64,000 bases of DNA from assembly GCF_000161795.2 (NCBI RefSeq), contig NZ_CP006882.1, positions 1,426,001 through 1,490,000 of the forward strand, written 5' to 3'. Of this stretch, positions 50,823 to 58,877 are shown one piece after another (position 1 is the stretch's first letter; the number at the start of each line of letters is the position of its first letter). The position numbers and the translations under genes are program-made. Below the pieces are notes generated by a model. The model was given only the letters and a program-made list of their open reading frames with translations. It was not told where the DNA came from and did not search any database. This DNA comes from Synechococcus sp. WH 8109. Lineage in GTDB: Bacteria; Cyanobacteriota; Cyanobacteriia; PCC-6307; Cyanobiaceae.

Positions 50823-51554
50823 TCAGCCCTGAGCCAGAACCTCATCGAGAAACGCCAAGGGACGTTCCATGGTGGCGGAGTAGCCGAGCAGGCTTTGATC
50901 GCGGTGGCAATAGATCACGCTGTCATCGGCGTCGAGCAGCACAGTGGCGCCGCGCTGGGTGATGTAGTCGTCACAGGGCACGTAGGTGCGCCAGTTGCGG
51001 AGCACTTCATTCATGTTGCGCAAACGCTTGGTGGCAAGCTCAAACGGTCGCTGGAACCCCGCACCACCGGCCCGGCGGAACAGAGCCCCCCGGAACCGCG
51101 GCAAAGGAAAGGCTTCAACCCACTCCTCATCGTCGAAGATCTGGGCCGCCGAGCTATCTCCGGTGTATCCGCGCAGCACCTCGCGCAGGGTGCCTGGCGA
51201 GCCGACGCCGGCACACATCAGCAGAAAACCGGGCCAAGGCCCACCGGGAAGTTTCAAGCCGGCCTCCAACCCCAGGGCCTGATGCAACAGCGGCGATGGA
51301 TCAGCGATCAGCTGCTGCAGAGGAAACCCGGTGAAGGCCGCGAAGCGTTCGGCACTGGCAGCGTTGCCGATGCCGAAGAGCTGAACCTTGACCCCAAGTG
51401 CCGCCAACTGGGGAAGCCTTGGCACCAGCGCCTGGGCGTATTCGATCGAGTCGAAATCCCCCAGCTGGCCCTGCACAACAACAAGGCGCTTGCAGCCGCT
51501 CTCCATGCCGGCAACTGCGGCCAGCCGTTGCAACAGTGGATCCAGTGGAATCAT
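50823..51554 (-). CDS. Peroxiredoxin-like (AhpC/TSA family) protein without the usual active-site Cys
   Basis: A 243-residue protein with a thioredoxin-like layout of the PRXL2 kind (LVVVQGQLGDFDSIEY, then VQLFGIGNAASAERFAAFTGFP). Where such proteins have CPxC or a peroxidatic Cys, the sequence reads QGQLGDF, with no cysteine. It therefore probably lacks classic peroxidase activity. The ATG at 51554 (MIPLDPLL) is the family-like start; the longer frame overlaps the divergent gene at 51639. Confidence 0.7.
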   Translation of the reverse strand: MIPLDPLLQRLAAVAGMESGCKRLVVVQGQLGDFDSIEYAQALVPRLPQLAALGVKVQLFGIGNAASAERFAAFTGFPLQQLIADPSPLLHQALGLEAGLKLPGGPWPGFLLMCAGVGSPGTLREVLRGYTGDSSAAQIFDDEEWVEAFPLPRFRGALFRRAGGAGFQRPFELATKRLRNMNEVLRNWRTYVPCDDYITQRGATVLLDADDSVIYCHRDQSLLGYSATMERPLAFLDEVLAQG

Positions 51555-51638
51555 CCCGACAGGCTGACATTTCGCCTCCGAGAACGTGGATGGCGTTTGC
51601 GCACCGCCTGAGAGACTCAAATCAAAGGCAGGAAGCAG

Positions 51639-52037
51639 GTGGGCAAGAAATCTGGCTTCACAAATGCTGAGATCGAGGAGATCAAGCGTTTGTATATGCA
51701 GGAAGGGCGGTCGATCCTGCAGATCCCCAAGATCCTGGGCAAAGGCAGTGAAAACTCCGTGCGCAACGCCCTGCACAAGGCCCGGGTCAAGCATGCGCCG
51801 GAGGAACGCACCAAGCTGGAGCGATTCAAGCCAGATCAAGTTTTTGAGAACGTCACCCTTTTAAAGCGACTCAAAAAAGCGAAAAAACTGAAGTTCCATG
51901 CCCGCTGTGCCTGTGGCTACGAATTTGACGTGGATCCATTCCGGCTAACGCTGCCGGAACACCACAAAGACAGAATTACTGCATGCCAACGCTGCAGCAA
52001 AGCGCAAACAGAGGAACGCTCCAAGCCTCGAGCCTGA
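51639..52037 (+). CDS. Unknown protein with helix-turn-helix and zinc-knuckle-like C-terminus
   Basis: A 132-residue basic protein. Residues ~5-50 (TNAEIEEIKRLYM, then SILQIPKILGKG) look like a helix-turn-helix. The C-terminal part has CAC at ~89-91 and CQRC near 116-119, a possible zinc site. No exact family was recognised. GTG 51639 is the likely start. It heads an AT-richer patch of short genes, unlike the neighbours. A DNA-binding regulator or a fragment of a mobile-element protein are both possible. Confidence 0.6.
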   Translation: MGKKSGFTNAEIEEIKRLYMQEGRSILQIPKILGKGSENSVRNALHKARVKHAPEERTKLERFKPDQVFENVTLLKRLKKAKKLKFHARCACGYEFDVDPFRLTLPEHHKDRITACQRCSKAQTEERSKPRA

Positions 52038-52287
52038 TAAAATCGATAGAGACAATTTCAACAGCGCGACCAAAACCAAAAATATTTCAACTTCTTTACC
52101 TCAAAAACACAAAATCTCACAACTGACATCGATCCCTTCCTCCTGTCAGGGCAGGGGTCAAGAGCAGAACTTGTATCAAGATAACGCAACCCTAACAATA
52201 GCTAAAGAGCAAGGTATTAAGCGTAATCTTGCCATATTTGGGCGACGGCGTAGAACTCAAAAGTTTTTATCCATCCCTGTTCAGGCC
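52038..52287. other. AT-rich stretch without a recognised gene
   Basis: About 250 bp noticeably richer in A and T than the rest of the window, with A-rich tracts near 52070-52115. No convincing gene, RNA or repeat was seen. An open frame begins at 52171 but its first 39 codons lack family support. Confidence 0.5.
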
Positions 52288-52389
52288 ATGGAACTCACTT
52301 TCTTGGGCAGCAAATATGCAAAGACTGAAGCAGTATCGACGAGGCCAACAATCCAACTGAAATACATGGGGCAAAAGCTATCGGGCTGA
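52288..52389 (+). CDS. Possible tiny DUF4278-like protein
   Basis: A 33-residue open frame starting ATG 52288. The pattern MELTFLGSKY then QLKYMGQ resembles the repeated LxYRGxxY/KYRG units of DUF4278 proteins, small proteins common in picocyanobacteria with unknown role. The size and lone location keep confidence low. Confidence 0.4.
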   Translation: MELTFLGSKYAKTEAVSTRPTIQLKYMGQKLSG

Positions 52390-52531
52390 GCAAATCAAAT
52401 CCCTACGCAATTGCGTTGCTCTGACCTACCGCGGCGTCTCCTACTCCAAAGTCTGAGAAGGCGTTGGACTTGGGCACTGAGAACGCAGCTGACGTGACGG
52501 CATGACGCCGCAGGATCGGCACAATTGCGCG

Positions 52532-52768
52532 ATGAGAGTTCTGATCACAGTCCTGATCGCGTCCAGTGCTTTGGCCTGGCCGGCAAAGAGTGCGGAATCG
52601 ATCCCCCTCGTGGTGGTTCCCTTCGATGCCGCATGGGGGTCGCGACGTCTTCCCGTTCAGCCCGCAGCGTTGTTGCCGCCACCTCCAATCCCTGTACCGA
52701 GTCCAGGAAGCAAACCCGACGCTGAACCAAGGCCGCAACGCCAACGCTGGTGCCGGGGTGGCTGCTGA
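52532..52768 (+). CDS. Possible small secreted Pro-rich protein
   Basis: A 78-residue frame starting MRVLITVLIASSALAWPAKSA, a plausible signal peptide, followed by a proline-rich stretch and a Cys-containing end. No family recognised. Its frame ends just where another frame with a Cys-pair domain begins downstream, so the two could be parts of one gene split by a frameshift, or separate genes. Confidence 0.4.
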   Translation: MRVLITVLIASSALAWPAKSAESIPLVVVPFDAAWGSRRLPVQPAALLPPPPIPVPSPGSKPDAEPRPQRQRWCRGGC

Positions 52769-52878
52769 ACGGGACGGCTGCTGAACGCAGCACGGCTGTC
52801 ACCTGGAAGCGTTCTGTGTACACCGAAGTTAGAAGCCAACCCCATCGGGCCCTAACGACGCGAAAAGCGGCGCTGTTG

Positions 52879-53076
52879 ATGGCCAGCCTCCATCTGGGAT
52901 CCATGGATCTTGCGGGTGGCAAGCGGGCCACAGCCCAAGGGCCGTCTAAACAGTTCGCCACCGCTGAGGCGATGCGGGTGATCCCGAAAGGGGCAACGAT
53001 CACCAACACCACCTGCAAAAGCATTGATCGGGGAGCCAGAAGCCGCTATCTGTGCACCATCACCTACAGCCCCTGA
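52879..53076 (+). CDS. Possible small secreted protein with two cysteines
   Basis: At least 65 residues in a frame that is open from 52750. The C-terminal half (AMRVIPKGATITNTTC, then YLCTITYSP) looks like the end of small secreted picocyanobacterial proteins with one disulfide. A hydrophobic stretch before it may be a signal peptide; the start is not certain (TTG 52876 or ATG 52879). It may be the second part of the gene starting at 52532. Confidence 0.4.
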   Translation: MASLHLGSMDLAGGKRATAQGPSKQFATAEAMRVIPKGATITNTTCKSIDRGARSRYLCTITYSP

Positions 53077-53084
53077 GCTGATCG

Positions 53085-53354
53085 ATGAAAGGCTGGCGTG
53101 CTGCGTGTTGGAGCCTGATCCTGTTGGGGATCCCGGCTGCGGGGCGCGCCGAATTTGATCAGTGTCGCTTGATCGATAAGGTGCTGAATCGCCTGGGCAA
53201 CGCCATGGCAAACAACCGTTTGATCATTGCGGAAGGCAATAACAGCACGGCCGTCGCTAAGGCGAGTGAAGCTCTGGCCCAACAAAACGAGAGCTACCGG
53301 CGCACCAAGCGCCAACGCGCCAAAGCCGGCTGCGATGGCTGGCAAACGGACTGA
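53085..53354 (+). CDS. Small secreted hypothetical protein
   Basis: An 89-residue protein. A signal peptide is likely at residues 1-22 (WRAACWSLILLGIPAAGRA). The mature part is helical and basic, with two Cys (near residues 27 and 83) that could pair. It starts nine bases after the preceding frame ends. Function unknown. Confidence 0.6.
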   Translation: MKGWRAACWSLILLGIPAAGRAEFDQCRLIDKVLNRLGNAMANNRLIIAEGNNSTAVAKASEALAQQNESYRRTKRQRAKAGCDGWQTD

Positions 53355-53402
53355 CTGCCTGGCTCACGCCAGGCAAGCTGGTAGAACGCTGATCGAGAGA
53401 CC

Positions 53403-53612
53403 TTGGCCGTCACCGTCTGCCAGAACTGCGGAAGCCGCCGGTTTCGTGCCGACCGCTCAATGGGCGGGCGCCTTGTCTGTCAGCACTGCGGCCTTGCGGC
53501 CGGAAGCCGAGCTGCGCGGTCCACACCGCACAGCAGCCGGCGCAGCAACGCAAAACGCTGGCTGGTGATCCTGCTGATCGCGGTGATCGTGCTGGTGGTA
53601 GTCACGTCGTGA
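53403..53612 (+). CDS. Small zinc-ribbon membrane protein
   Basis: A 69-residue protein. CQNCG and CQHCG (Cys pairs ~22 residues apart) form a zinc ribbon of the transcription-factor or rubredoxin-like type. A basic linker and a C-terminal membrane helix (WLVILLIAVIVLVVV) follow. The start is TTG 53403. It overlaps the convergent pepN gene by 11 bases. Function unknown. Confidence 0.65.
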   Translation: MAVTVCQNCGSRRFRADRSMGGRLVCQHCGLAAGSRAARSTPHSSRRSNAKRWLVILLIAVIVLVVVTS

Positions 53613-56205
53613 GCAACTGCACCACCTCGGCGGTGTTCGCTGACAAAGGCTTGGCGGCCAGCTGGTCGATGGCCTGACGCATGACCGTTTGGCGCTCGGG
53701 GCCGTAACTGCCGCAGCGACTGAACACCTTGGCCATCCGTGATGCGGTAATCGGATTGCGGGAGTCGACCGCTGCGATCTGCTCCGCCATGAAGCGGTAG
53801 CCACTGCCATCGATGGCGTGAAACGCCTGAACATTGGCGGTGAATCCACCGAGAACGGCGCGAAGGGAATTGGGCGCCAGGGGATCGAAGCGCGGGTGCT
53901 CCAGCAGCTGTTGAACACGCTCCAACGCGTTGGACCTGGGGGCTGATGCCTCCATCGCAAACCAGGCGTCCAGAATCACGGGCTTGTCTTGCCAACGGTC
54001 GTAAAACAGCGCCATCGCCTGCTCACGCTCAGCACTTTCCTGCGGCAACAATGCCCGCAGGGCACCACGCGCCAGGGTCATCGAGGGGCCGGAAACAGCA
54101 GCCAACGCCTCCGCTTGAACCGTGGCATCACCAGCCGCGGCAAGCCAGCGCCAGGCCAAGGCCGTCAGGGCCCGGCCGCCCTGACCAGCCGGCCAAGCCA
54201 AGGTCCAGTCAGCCCGGGCCAGCTCCAGAAGTCGGCGCAGGGACTGCTGCAATTGAACGCCCATCTCCTGGGTCCACGCCCGGAAGGCTTGATCCAGCGC
54301 CAACGGATCCACCGGGGATTGCAACGCCTCCAGTTCCGCCATGCCCGGCAGCGCCAGCAGCGCCGCCAGATCCATACCATCACCACCGTCATAGGCGCAG
54401 ATCCGCTGATCGAAGGCCTGAATCAGCGCCGCTTCCACAGCAGGCTTCGGCTGGTTTTCAGCCCGCGCCAACAGCACCTGGCGTGCCAGGCGCTGGGCCG
54501 CATCCCAGCGGCAGAACGGGTCATCATCGGAAGCCAACAGCTGCAGGCACTCCTCCAGCGGCTGCTCCAAACGCACGTGCACGGGCGCCGAGAAGCGGCG
54601 CAGCACGGAAAGGGCAGGGGGTGTGTCGCCGGGCTGGCCCTGCAGGGTGATGCTGGCGCGCTCAGCCTGCATCACCAACAGCTGCTCCTCACCAACACGG
54701 CCTTGCTCACCCACAAGGGCCATGGCAACCGGCAGCACCAGGGGCTGCTTCTCTGCCTGCCCTGGCGTCGGAGGCGTCGCCTGGTGCAAGTCCACCGTCA
54801 ACTGACCAGATTCGGGGTTCCACTGCCGATCAATGCTGAGTTCAGGAGTTCCAGCCTGGTGGTACCAACGCTTAAAGCGTTCCAAATCAAACCCAAGCGG
54901 CTCACCCTGGCTGGTGGCGCCATCGGCAATCGCCTGAACGAAGTCTTCCGTTGTGGCGGCCGTGCCGTCGAAGCGTTGCACGTAGACCTCCATTCCCTTC
55001 ATGAACCGCTCGGGTCCCAGCAGGGTGCGCAGCATGCGGATCAACTCCGCGCCTTTTTCATAGATGGTCGTTGTGTAGAAGTTATCGATCGCCTGGTATT
55101 CCGCTGGCTTCACCGGATGGGCCGTCGGACCAGCATCCTCACGGAATTGAGTGTTGCGCAACATCGCAACATCCTCAATGCGCTTCACCGCTTCTGAATG
55201 CAGATCTGCGGTGAAGCACTGATCACGGAACACTGTCAGACCTTCTTTTAGCGACAGCTGGAACCAATCACGGCAGGTGATGCGATTTCCGCTCCAGTTG
55301 TGAAAGTATTCATGAGCAATCACACTTTCGATGCGCTCAAGTTCAGCATCGGTGGCTGTTTCCGCGTCAGCCAAAACAAGCTTTGAGTTGAAAATATTCA
55401 GACTCTTGTTTTCCATCGCGCCCATATTGAAGTGACGGACGGCGACGATGTTGTATTCATCAAGATCGTATTCAAGGTTGTAAACCGATTCATCCCATTG
55501 CATGGATCGTTTCAACGAAGCCATGGCATGGGCCGTGAAGGCTTCATCCCCCTCCTCCACATGCAAGCGCAGGGTGACCTGCCGGCCCGACGCCGTTGTG
55601 TAGTGATCACGAATCTCCCTGAGGTCTCCGGCCACCAGAGCGAACAGATAGGAGGGCTTGGGGAAGGGGTCATCCCACGTGACCGCATGACGATCAGCGC
55701 CGACGGCTTCCTCCTGAACCGCATTGCCGTTGCTCAACAGGACAGGGCAACTGCTGCGGCTGGCCTCTATCCGCACCTGCCAGCGGCTCAACACATCCGG
55801 ACGATCGGGGTGCAGGCTGATGCGCCGGAACCCCTCGGCCTCACACTGGGTGCTCAGCAGGCCACCGCTGGCGTATAGGCCTTCGAGGGAACTATTGGAG
55901 TAGGGATCCAGACGGCAACGGGTTTCCAGCACAAACGGATGGCCCGGCACGTTGGGGATGGTGAGACGGCCGTCGGCAAAGCTGTACTCCTCGGACTGCA
56001 ATGGCTCCTGATCGATCGCAAGGGATTCGATCGCCAGATCGACGCCGCACAGCACCAACGGCTCTCCAGAGCGACGCGGTTCAATGCTGAGCCTGGAGGC
56101 AATGACGACATGGTCGTCCTGGATGTTCACGTCCAGAACGATGGAAGGGAGTTCAAAGGCCCACGGCGTGTAGTCCGCCAGACGAATCGAAGCAGCTGCA
56201 GTCAT
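53602..56205 (-). CDS. pepN: Aminopeptidase N (M1 family)
   Basis: An 867-residue zinc aminopeptidase that trims N-terminal residues from peptides. GAMEN at residues 262-266 binds the substrate N-terminus. The zinc motif HEYFH (298-302) with Glu321 is intact. The rest is the Ig-like and helical C-terminal domains of the M1 family. It is a cytosolic recycling enzyme. Confidence 0.96.
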   Translation of the reverse strand: MTAAASIRLADYTPWAFELPSIVLDVNIQDDHVVIASRLSIEPRRSGEPLVLCGVDLAIESLAIDQEPLQSEEYSFADGRLTIPNVPGHPFVLETRCRLDPYSNSSLEGLYASGGLLSTQCEAEGFRRISLHPDRPDVLSRWQVRIEASRSSCPVLLSNGNAVQEEAVGADRHAVTWDDPFPKPSYLFALVAGDLREIRDHYTTASGRQVTLRLHVEEGDEAFTAHAMASLKRSMQWDESVYNLEYDLDEYNIVAVRHFNMGAMENKSLNIFNSKLVLADAETATDAELERIESVIAHEYFHNWSGNRITCRDWFQLSLKEGLTVFRDQCFTADLHSEAVKRIEDVAMLRNTQFREDAGPTAHPVKPAEYQAIDNFYTTTIYEKGAELIRMLRTLLGPERFMKGMEVYVQRFDGTAATTEDFVQAIADGATSQGEPLGFDLERFKRWYHQAGTPELSIDRQWNPESGQLTVDLHQATPPTPGQAEKQPLVLPVAMALVGEQGRVGEEQLLVMQAERASITLQGQPGDTPPALSVLRRFSAPVHVRLEQPLEECLQLLASDDDPFCRWDAAQRLARQVLLARAENQPKPAVEAALIQAFDQRICAYDGGDGMDLAALLALPGMAELEALQSPVDPLALDQAFRAWTQEMGVQLQQSLRRLLELARADWTLAWPAGQGGRALTALAWRWLAAAGDATVQAEALAAVSGPSMTLARGALRALLPQESAEREQAMALFYDRWQDKPVILDAWFAMEASAPRSNALERVQQLLEHPRFDPLAPNSLRAVLGGFTANVQAFHAIDGSGYRFMAEQIAAVDSRNPITASRMAKVFSRCGSYGPERQTVMRQAIDQLAAKPLSANTAEVVQLLTT

Positions 56206-58804: not shown

Positions 58805-58877
58805 GCCCCCATCGTCTAGAGGCCTAGGACACCTCCCTTTCACGGAGGCGACAGGGGTTCGAATCCCCTTGGGGGTA
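58805..58877 (+). tRNA. trnE: tRNA-Glu (UUC)
   Basis: A 73-base cloverleaf. GCCCCCA pairs with TGGGGGT in the acceptor stem; the anticodon stem CCTCC/GGAGG holds loop CTTTCAC with anticodon TTC; the T-loop is GTTCGAATC. The CCA end is not encoded. Besides translation, Glu-tRNA feeds 5-aminolevulinate and tetrapyrrole synthesis. It stands alone between sasA and the SRPBCC gene. Confidence 0.97.

Follow-up and report, generated by a model that had tools for sequence, protein, structure and literature searches.

Four kinds of described system stand closest to the locus treated here: the DUF4278 genes of marine picocyanobacteria, the GS inactivating factor IF17, the genomic islands of marine Synechococcus, and phage proteins that combine zinc ribbons with HNH or AP2 domains. 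According to PMC6316151, NtcA recognizes GTA-N8-TAC, in marine picocyanobacteria the type 2 glutamine riboswitch accompanies DUF4278 genes, and DUF4278 covers the N-terminal part of IF17, a part that is disposable for IF17 function. The same source reports an NtcA motif in the promoter region of PMM1846 and describes GS regulation in marine picocyanobacteria as unclear.

The locus is a short interval between the genes prx and pepN in Synechococcus sp. WH 8109. The explanation that we consider best, and as a whole rather likely, is that an ancestral slot was filled in one clade, that its content has been vertically inherited and is eroding, and that its AT-rich core consists of the leader and gene of a DUF4278 protein. 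This article sets out the evidence for this explanation, weighs the alternatives to it and to its parts, and describes two types of DUF4278 leader that came to light on the way.

Genomes, Slot Borders, and Gene Content

The window, meaning the whole stretch of 64,000 nucleotides that was analyzed, comprises positions 1426001-1490000 of this genome (G000; one contig, 2,111,515 bases); other G-numbers denote relatives. The genus sample contained 34 genomes, G000 included; in 27 of them the interval found some match at the DNA level, and the slot was readable in 22. Twelve genomes carry the cassette of small genes (G000, G012, G021, G028, G027, G023, G002, G014, G033, G030, G022, and G007). In most relatives examined prx is the neighbor of the slot. 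The features in G000 are the following.

50823..51587, minus strand: prx, AhpC/TSA-like (PF13911; Pfam 65.7 bits, cut-off 27), left border of the slot
51639..52037, plus strand: hth, 132 aa, N-terminal helix-turn-helix (HTH), C-terminal CxC..CxxC zinc ribbon, GTG start
52038..52287, plus strand: AT-rich spacer, 3' end of the hth unit and promoter/leader of DUF4278, without an Rfam family
52214..52227, plus strand: altered GTR-N8-AAC element, GTA-N8-AAT in the slot leader of G000
52288..52456, plus strand: DUF4278 remnant, frameshifted in G000, early stop at 52387-52389
52532..52768, plus strand: sA, 78 aa, proline-rich, signal-like N-terminus, C-terminal RWCRGGC
52858..53076, plus strand: sB, a 72-aa exported-looking protein in relatives; in G000 ACG replaces the ATG start
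53085..53354, plus strand: sC, 89 aa, signal-like N-terminus, open in G000
53403..53612, plus strand: znr, 69 aa, zinc ribbon and C-terminal hydrophobic segment, TTG start
53602..56205, minus strand: pepN, right border of the slot

Much of this content had been anticipated by a first-pass annotation made from the sequence alone. Its statement that only short genes lie between prx and pepN was borne out by the ORF calls, which gave short ORFs only, and by the Pfam scan; its HTH/zinc-knuckle protein is the HTH and zinc-ribbon protein at 51639-52037, recognized from Pfam matches below cut-off and from an HTH in the structure model; and its zinc-ribbon membrane protein is znr, at 53403-53612. Two further entries stood in part. 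The DUF4278-like mini-gene exists as a DUF4278-like stretch but is frameshifted in G000, and the two or three secreted small proteins are three that look exported by eye, the middle one of which (sB) has lost its ATG.

Inheritance of the Cassette in a Variable Slot

Eleven relatives share the gene order hth - DUF4278 - sA - sB - sC - znr, apart from some losses. In a pepN tree of 20 rows, from which G014 and G013 were omitted because their pepN is cut, a branch supported at 100/99 separates all 11 included carriers from the other rows. A single change suffices to explain the carrier label on this tree, against a mean of 6.8 after shuffling, and none of 500 shuffles was as low. Because the order is shared by 11 relatives and the carriers belong to one pepN clade, the cassette is best regarded as inherited, not newly acquired.

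The slot itself is filled in various ways outside the clade. Of ten non-carrier slots, those of G020 and G024 are near-empty (283 and 287 bases), that of G029 holds 1028 gene-poor bases with 30% GC, that of G011 has hth alone, and the remainder contain other ORFs. As hth occurs there by itself in G011, the cassette may have been assembled in steps. Across the genus the distance from prx to pepN ranges from 283 bases (G020) to about 10.8 kb (G002), with 6441 bases in G030 and about 10.4 kb in G022, and this is by far the most variable interval in the 20-kb neighborhood (15 relatives). The remaining core intervals measure 9-374 bases wherever both of their genes could be located, with few exceptions, these being rhomboid-prx (1458 bases in G020, 732 in G024) and pepN to the next gene in G005 (994 bases), a genome in which prx is located elsewhere. 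Extra DNA between prx and hth amounts to 8.8 kb in G002, 7.0 kb in G022, and 4.5 kb in G030. In G007 and G022 a gene of 462-485 aa lies between hth and sA, beside or replacing DUF4278.

L042:5985-7370 (G007), counterpart in L041 (G022), minus strand: 462-485-aa gene with a weak glutamine-amidotransferase match

The G007 copy scores 16.2 bits for the glutamine-amidotransferase family, below the cut-off of 22.8.

We propose that accessory genes have long had a slot between prx and znr-pepN, that in the ancestor of one Synechococcus clade this slot was filled with the cassette hth - DUF4278 - sA - sB - sC, and that the cassette was then passed down and eroded. The slot is in itself an ordinary case of small-gene turnover.

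Base Composition

The GC content of the window is 61.4%. Values fall to 53.4% in hth, 41.6% in the spacer (52038-52287), and 48.5% in the DUF4278 stretch, and stand at 62.9% in sA, 60.8% in sB, 59.6% in sC, and 66.7% in znr. The AT-richer patch announced by the first-pass annotation therefore holds for the first half of the interval (hth, spacer, and DUF4278) but not for the last four genes, which have 60-67% GC. The interval that it delimited has 56.6% GC overall, and 3.6% of windows of equal size are as low or lower. At a window size of 500 bases (step 50) the seven most AT-rich windows begin at 51751-52051, and at 2 kb the most AT-rich begin at 54801-55301, in or after pepN (lowest GC 55.1%). 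The AT-rich core is mostly intergenic promoter/leader plus the short DUF4278 gene. This composition is shared, the DNA between hth and sA having 44-49% GC in all nine aligned genomes, G000 included. Comparison of the pepN-peroxiredoxin interval among relatives, the check proposed for an island, accordingly yielded the same genes with equal AT-richness and came near to refuting that claim; the exception is G033, a carrier relative without the AT-rich block.

Two Kinds of DUF4278 Leader

A Pfam search of G000 for DUF4278 (E 0.001) returned eight matches, and the slot copy was not one of them. The Glutamine-II aptamer RF01704 was found at five of the eight loci with 60-75 bits, and three are without it. 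Two of these matches form a tandem pair in which each gene has its own Glutamine-II aptamer (G000:C1:1290391-1291349; L074, L075). Near-identical short DUF4278-like ORFs of about 48 aa occur at G000:C1:1743858 and 1304674 (L078, L079), one of them lying no more than about 1.5 kb from the tmRNA gene.

At the slot DUF4278 gene neither G000 nor nine relatives gave a match to any Rfam family, the limit being E 2. A known RNA family in the AT-rich block was considered and rejected, as only PVT1_7 and SCARNA6 appeared, below threshold (E about 0.7) and by name families of animals. A small protein encoded in the leader was likewise rejected, given single-base insertions and deletions and no common start codon.

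The leaders compared come from 29 DUF4278 loci in three genera, a set that does not include weaker matches or those lacking a locus. Seven of them form the riboswitch class, as called by the pattern GGAACGGGG and not by cmscan. In 19 of the 22 riboswitch-free leaders the sequence GTR-N8-AAC-(n)-TTG is present with its first base 64-79 bases before the start codon, and GAACnTTG is present in 20. Neither the full element nor GAACnTTG occurs in any of the seven riboswitch leaders (200 bases), and exact GTA-N8-TAC occurs in three. The riboswitch-free leaders that depart from the full element are the slot copy of G000, with its GTA-N8-AAT, L101 (GAACnTTG at -133), and L121 (GAACnTTG without GTR). 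Within 200 bases, exact GTA-N8-TAC was seen in 1/22 riboswitch-free leaders, that of L098, where it stands at -39 and next to a GTA-N8-AAC, and not at the slot locus. Six of eight representatives contain the full pattern; over 5000 mononucleotide shuffles the mean was 0.005, and the count never reached six. As the pattern was chosen after the alignments had been viewed and the genes have a common ancestry, these counts speak for conservation and not for function.

A Candidate Nitrogen Control Site Shared With amt

The amt gene was collected from 31 of the 34 genomes; of 30 loci retrieved (L193-L222), 29 were inspected and 16 aligned. In 26 of the 29 GTR-N8-WAC lies 97-114 bases before the amt start, and GTA-N9-AC is present in 28; canonical GTA-N8-TAC was absent from the 260 bases searched before amt. 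At the element match in G010 the amt family was confirmed (PF00909, 94.3 bits, cut-off 23.2), and this amt site agrees with the DUF4278 site of G021 at 14 of 14 letters. PMC9430850 gives for amt1 of WH7803 an increase of about 46-fold on nitrogen starvation as compared with ammonium. The amt sites together with this nitrogen response of amt1 support an NtcA-type GTA-N8-AAC form in the genus, and the resemblance suggests, at the level of sequence, that the conserved DUF4278 leader element is an NtcA-type nitrogen control site. Two results speak against this identity: the lack of a TAN3T box behind the DUF4278 and amt sites tested, and the rarity of the exact consensus GTA-N8-TAC in the riboswitch-free leaders. 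By analogy with the domain that it shares with IF17, the slot-type DUF4278 protein would have a putative function in nitrogen control.

The reading that ties these observations together distinguishes two regulatory classes of DUF4278 genes in this group of Synechococcus, one governed by the glutamine-II riboswitch and the other riboswitch-free and under putative direct NtcA-type control, with an element core shared with amt. We put it forward tentatively, as a possibility that falls somewhat short of an even chance. If it is true, the members of the riboswitch-free class would be mini-proteins resembling IF17 and directly linked to nitrogen status, one of them lost in G000; together with the element before amt the class would give a concrete and testable regulon, and the loss of members from strain to strain would show that parts of that regulon are dispensable. 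This class is the useful by-product of an analysis whose other results are mostly ordinary.

A different identity for the element, which we think unlikely, is that of a -35 box read by an alternative sigma factor of the ECF type that recognizes GGAAC, in place of an NtcA-type site. GGAAC is a typical core of ECF -35 boxes. It is found in 20 of the 22 riboswitch-free leaders, and the absence of a TAN3T box, which was sought 18-27 bases behind the element and found at 0/19 full DUF4278 elements and 0/16 amt sites tested, would also agree with an ECF promoter. Against this, GTR stands at a fixed distance of 8 bases in 19 of the 22 leaders, the GTA-N8-AAC spacing recurs before amt, no conserved -10 was visible by eye at ECF spacing, and GGAAC is found in the seven riboswitch leaders as well, where it is part of the aptamer.

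In the 34 genomes the pattern GTA-N6-GGAAC-n-TTG matched 65 times and its reversal 41 times. Some 26-28 of these 65 matches represent a recurrent rRNA-like sequence, which in G000 (L166) lies within the 23S rRNA; with this sequence set aside there is no clear genome-wide excess of the element, and the scan does not point to a wide regulon. The same element also precedes similar small ORFs (...LWLQTHFP..EWD...) at L173:1501 (G011) and L180:1501 (G018), which are possibly another member of the same set.

The slot leader might instead act as RNA, in the form of a regulatory hairpin (GCAAGGT...ACCTTGC) that would constitute a new riboswitch-like element. An exact inverted repeat is indeed present at the slot locus in 6 of the 34 genomes, once in each, and a consensus hairpin is predicted. 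None of the ten predicted pairs shows a two-sided change among seven sequences, however, and in paralogues the left arm is not kept and the right half is, so that we regard the hairpin as very improbable and retain the NtcA-type site as the preferred, if tentative, reading of the leader.

hth, znr, and the Case for a Recent Island

The first gene of the cassette, hth, is intact in 12/12 slot genomes, with a GTG start in 11. Its only Pfam matches are Zn_ribbon_CSL and HTH_38, both below their cut-offs, and a sequence comparison with solved structures gave three matches at chance level (E 0.45-0.74). The structure model (mean pLDDT 76.7, pTM 0.49) contains an HTH that matches many DNA-binding domains, the best with Z 6.5 over 45 residues at 3.5 A; middling Z values are common in this fold search and the matches are to generic HTH. 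hth is presumably a DNA-binding regulator. The last gene, znr, is intact with a TTG start in 12/12 slot genomes of the clade and stands beside pepN in the other ten slot genomes as well. Codon-position counts show a third-position excess throughout for hth and znr, and in most comparisons for sC.

In the wider family, 29 of 350 sampled genomes contained hth, each in a single copy, and these belong to 2 of 59 genera. A planctomycete MAG contig (L062, JAAXJB010000041.1, assigned to Rubripirellula) carries an hth fragment with 94% identity over 49 residues and is probably a misbinned Synechococcus contig.

The first-pass annotation called this interval the most island-like part of the window, and a recent genomic island or phage remnant in G000 would account for the local AT-richness, for the variability of the slot with its larger insertions in G002, G022, G030, and G007, and for the resemblance of the zinc-ribbon half of hth to domains of phage HNH/AP2 proteins, which appear among the best 50 Foldseek matches of the model (best viral E 9.8e-4, a putative transcriptional regulator). 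What stands of the claim is that the slot itself is unusually variable; its content, the same genes in 11 relatives and a single clade, argues the other way. A viral scan with two hth peptide patterns gave 58 stretches, none of which was confirmed as a relative. As had been stated from the outset, an integrase or tRNA boundary is lacking: the window has a single tRNA, tRNA-Glu at 58805-58877, and the nine scanned proteins include no match to an integrase family. A recent island or phage remnant in G000 is thus very improbable, and as the origin of the cassette it was rejected because of the clade-wide synteny.

Erosion of the Cassette in the Clade

The inherited cassette is not equally preserved in all its carriers. 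No known family over cut-off was found for sA, sB, or sC, and sA was without a Pfam or PHROG match up to E 1. It is intact in 12/12 genomes. sB is intact in 8/12, its start being lost in G000, the gene broken in G028 and G014, and at most a remnant left in G007. Among the 12, sC is broken in G028 and has a shifted start in G027; its tail is shifted in G012 and changed a little in G014. From their N-termini, judged signal-like by eye as was that of sB, sA and sC would be exported proteins.

On the branch to G000, sB has accumulated one synonymous and seven non-synonymous changes, the start codon included, and within its signal-like segment the replacements L to H and A to D introduce polar or charged residues. 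The branch to G012 has four synonymous changes and no non-synonymous one. In G006 an sB homologue adjoins a DUF4278 gene at another genomic place (L044:4436-4994), a hint that the two genes travel or work together.

The slot copy of DUF4278 is intact in 9/12 genomes (55 aa in one frame), frameshifted in G000, and was not found in G033 and G007. The first part of the G000 copy scores 19.9 bits against PF14105, below the cut-off of 25.3, which an intact relative (P0001, G021) exceeds with 40.8 bits. In G000 the copy is probably a pseudogene; a related DUF4278 copy at G000:C1:1723571, in which gene and element are both intact, could take over its role. The frameshift could also stem from misassembly at a run of G. 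Programmed frameshifting that leaves the gene functional is scarcely credible: both halves are still recognizable, but 9/9 relatives with the gene have it in a single frame, and sB and the leader element are damaged in G000 too.

Comparison With Described Systems

The genomic islands of marine Synechococcus (PMC2441476, Genome Biol 2008 R90) likewise hold strain-variable accessory genes at one place; the slot differs from these islands in its size of about 2 kb, in that no mobility gene was found, and in its clade-wide vertical inheritance. Phage HNH/AP2 homing endonucleases and regulators have zinc-ribbon domains that the hth model matches, weakly and with partial coverage; unlike them, hth has no detected nuclease or AP2 domain. 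The PMM1846-type DUF4278 proteins with a Glutamine-II riboswitch (PMC6316151) belong to the same protein family as the slot gene, which differs from that type in lacking the Glutamine-II aptamer, in having a GTR-N8-AAC element near its start codon, and in being broken in G000. The GS inactivating factor IF17 (gifB) shares the DUF4278 domain, and the slot protein, at about 55 aa, corresponds to the DUF4278 part only.
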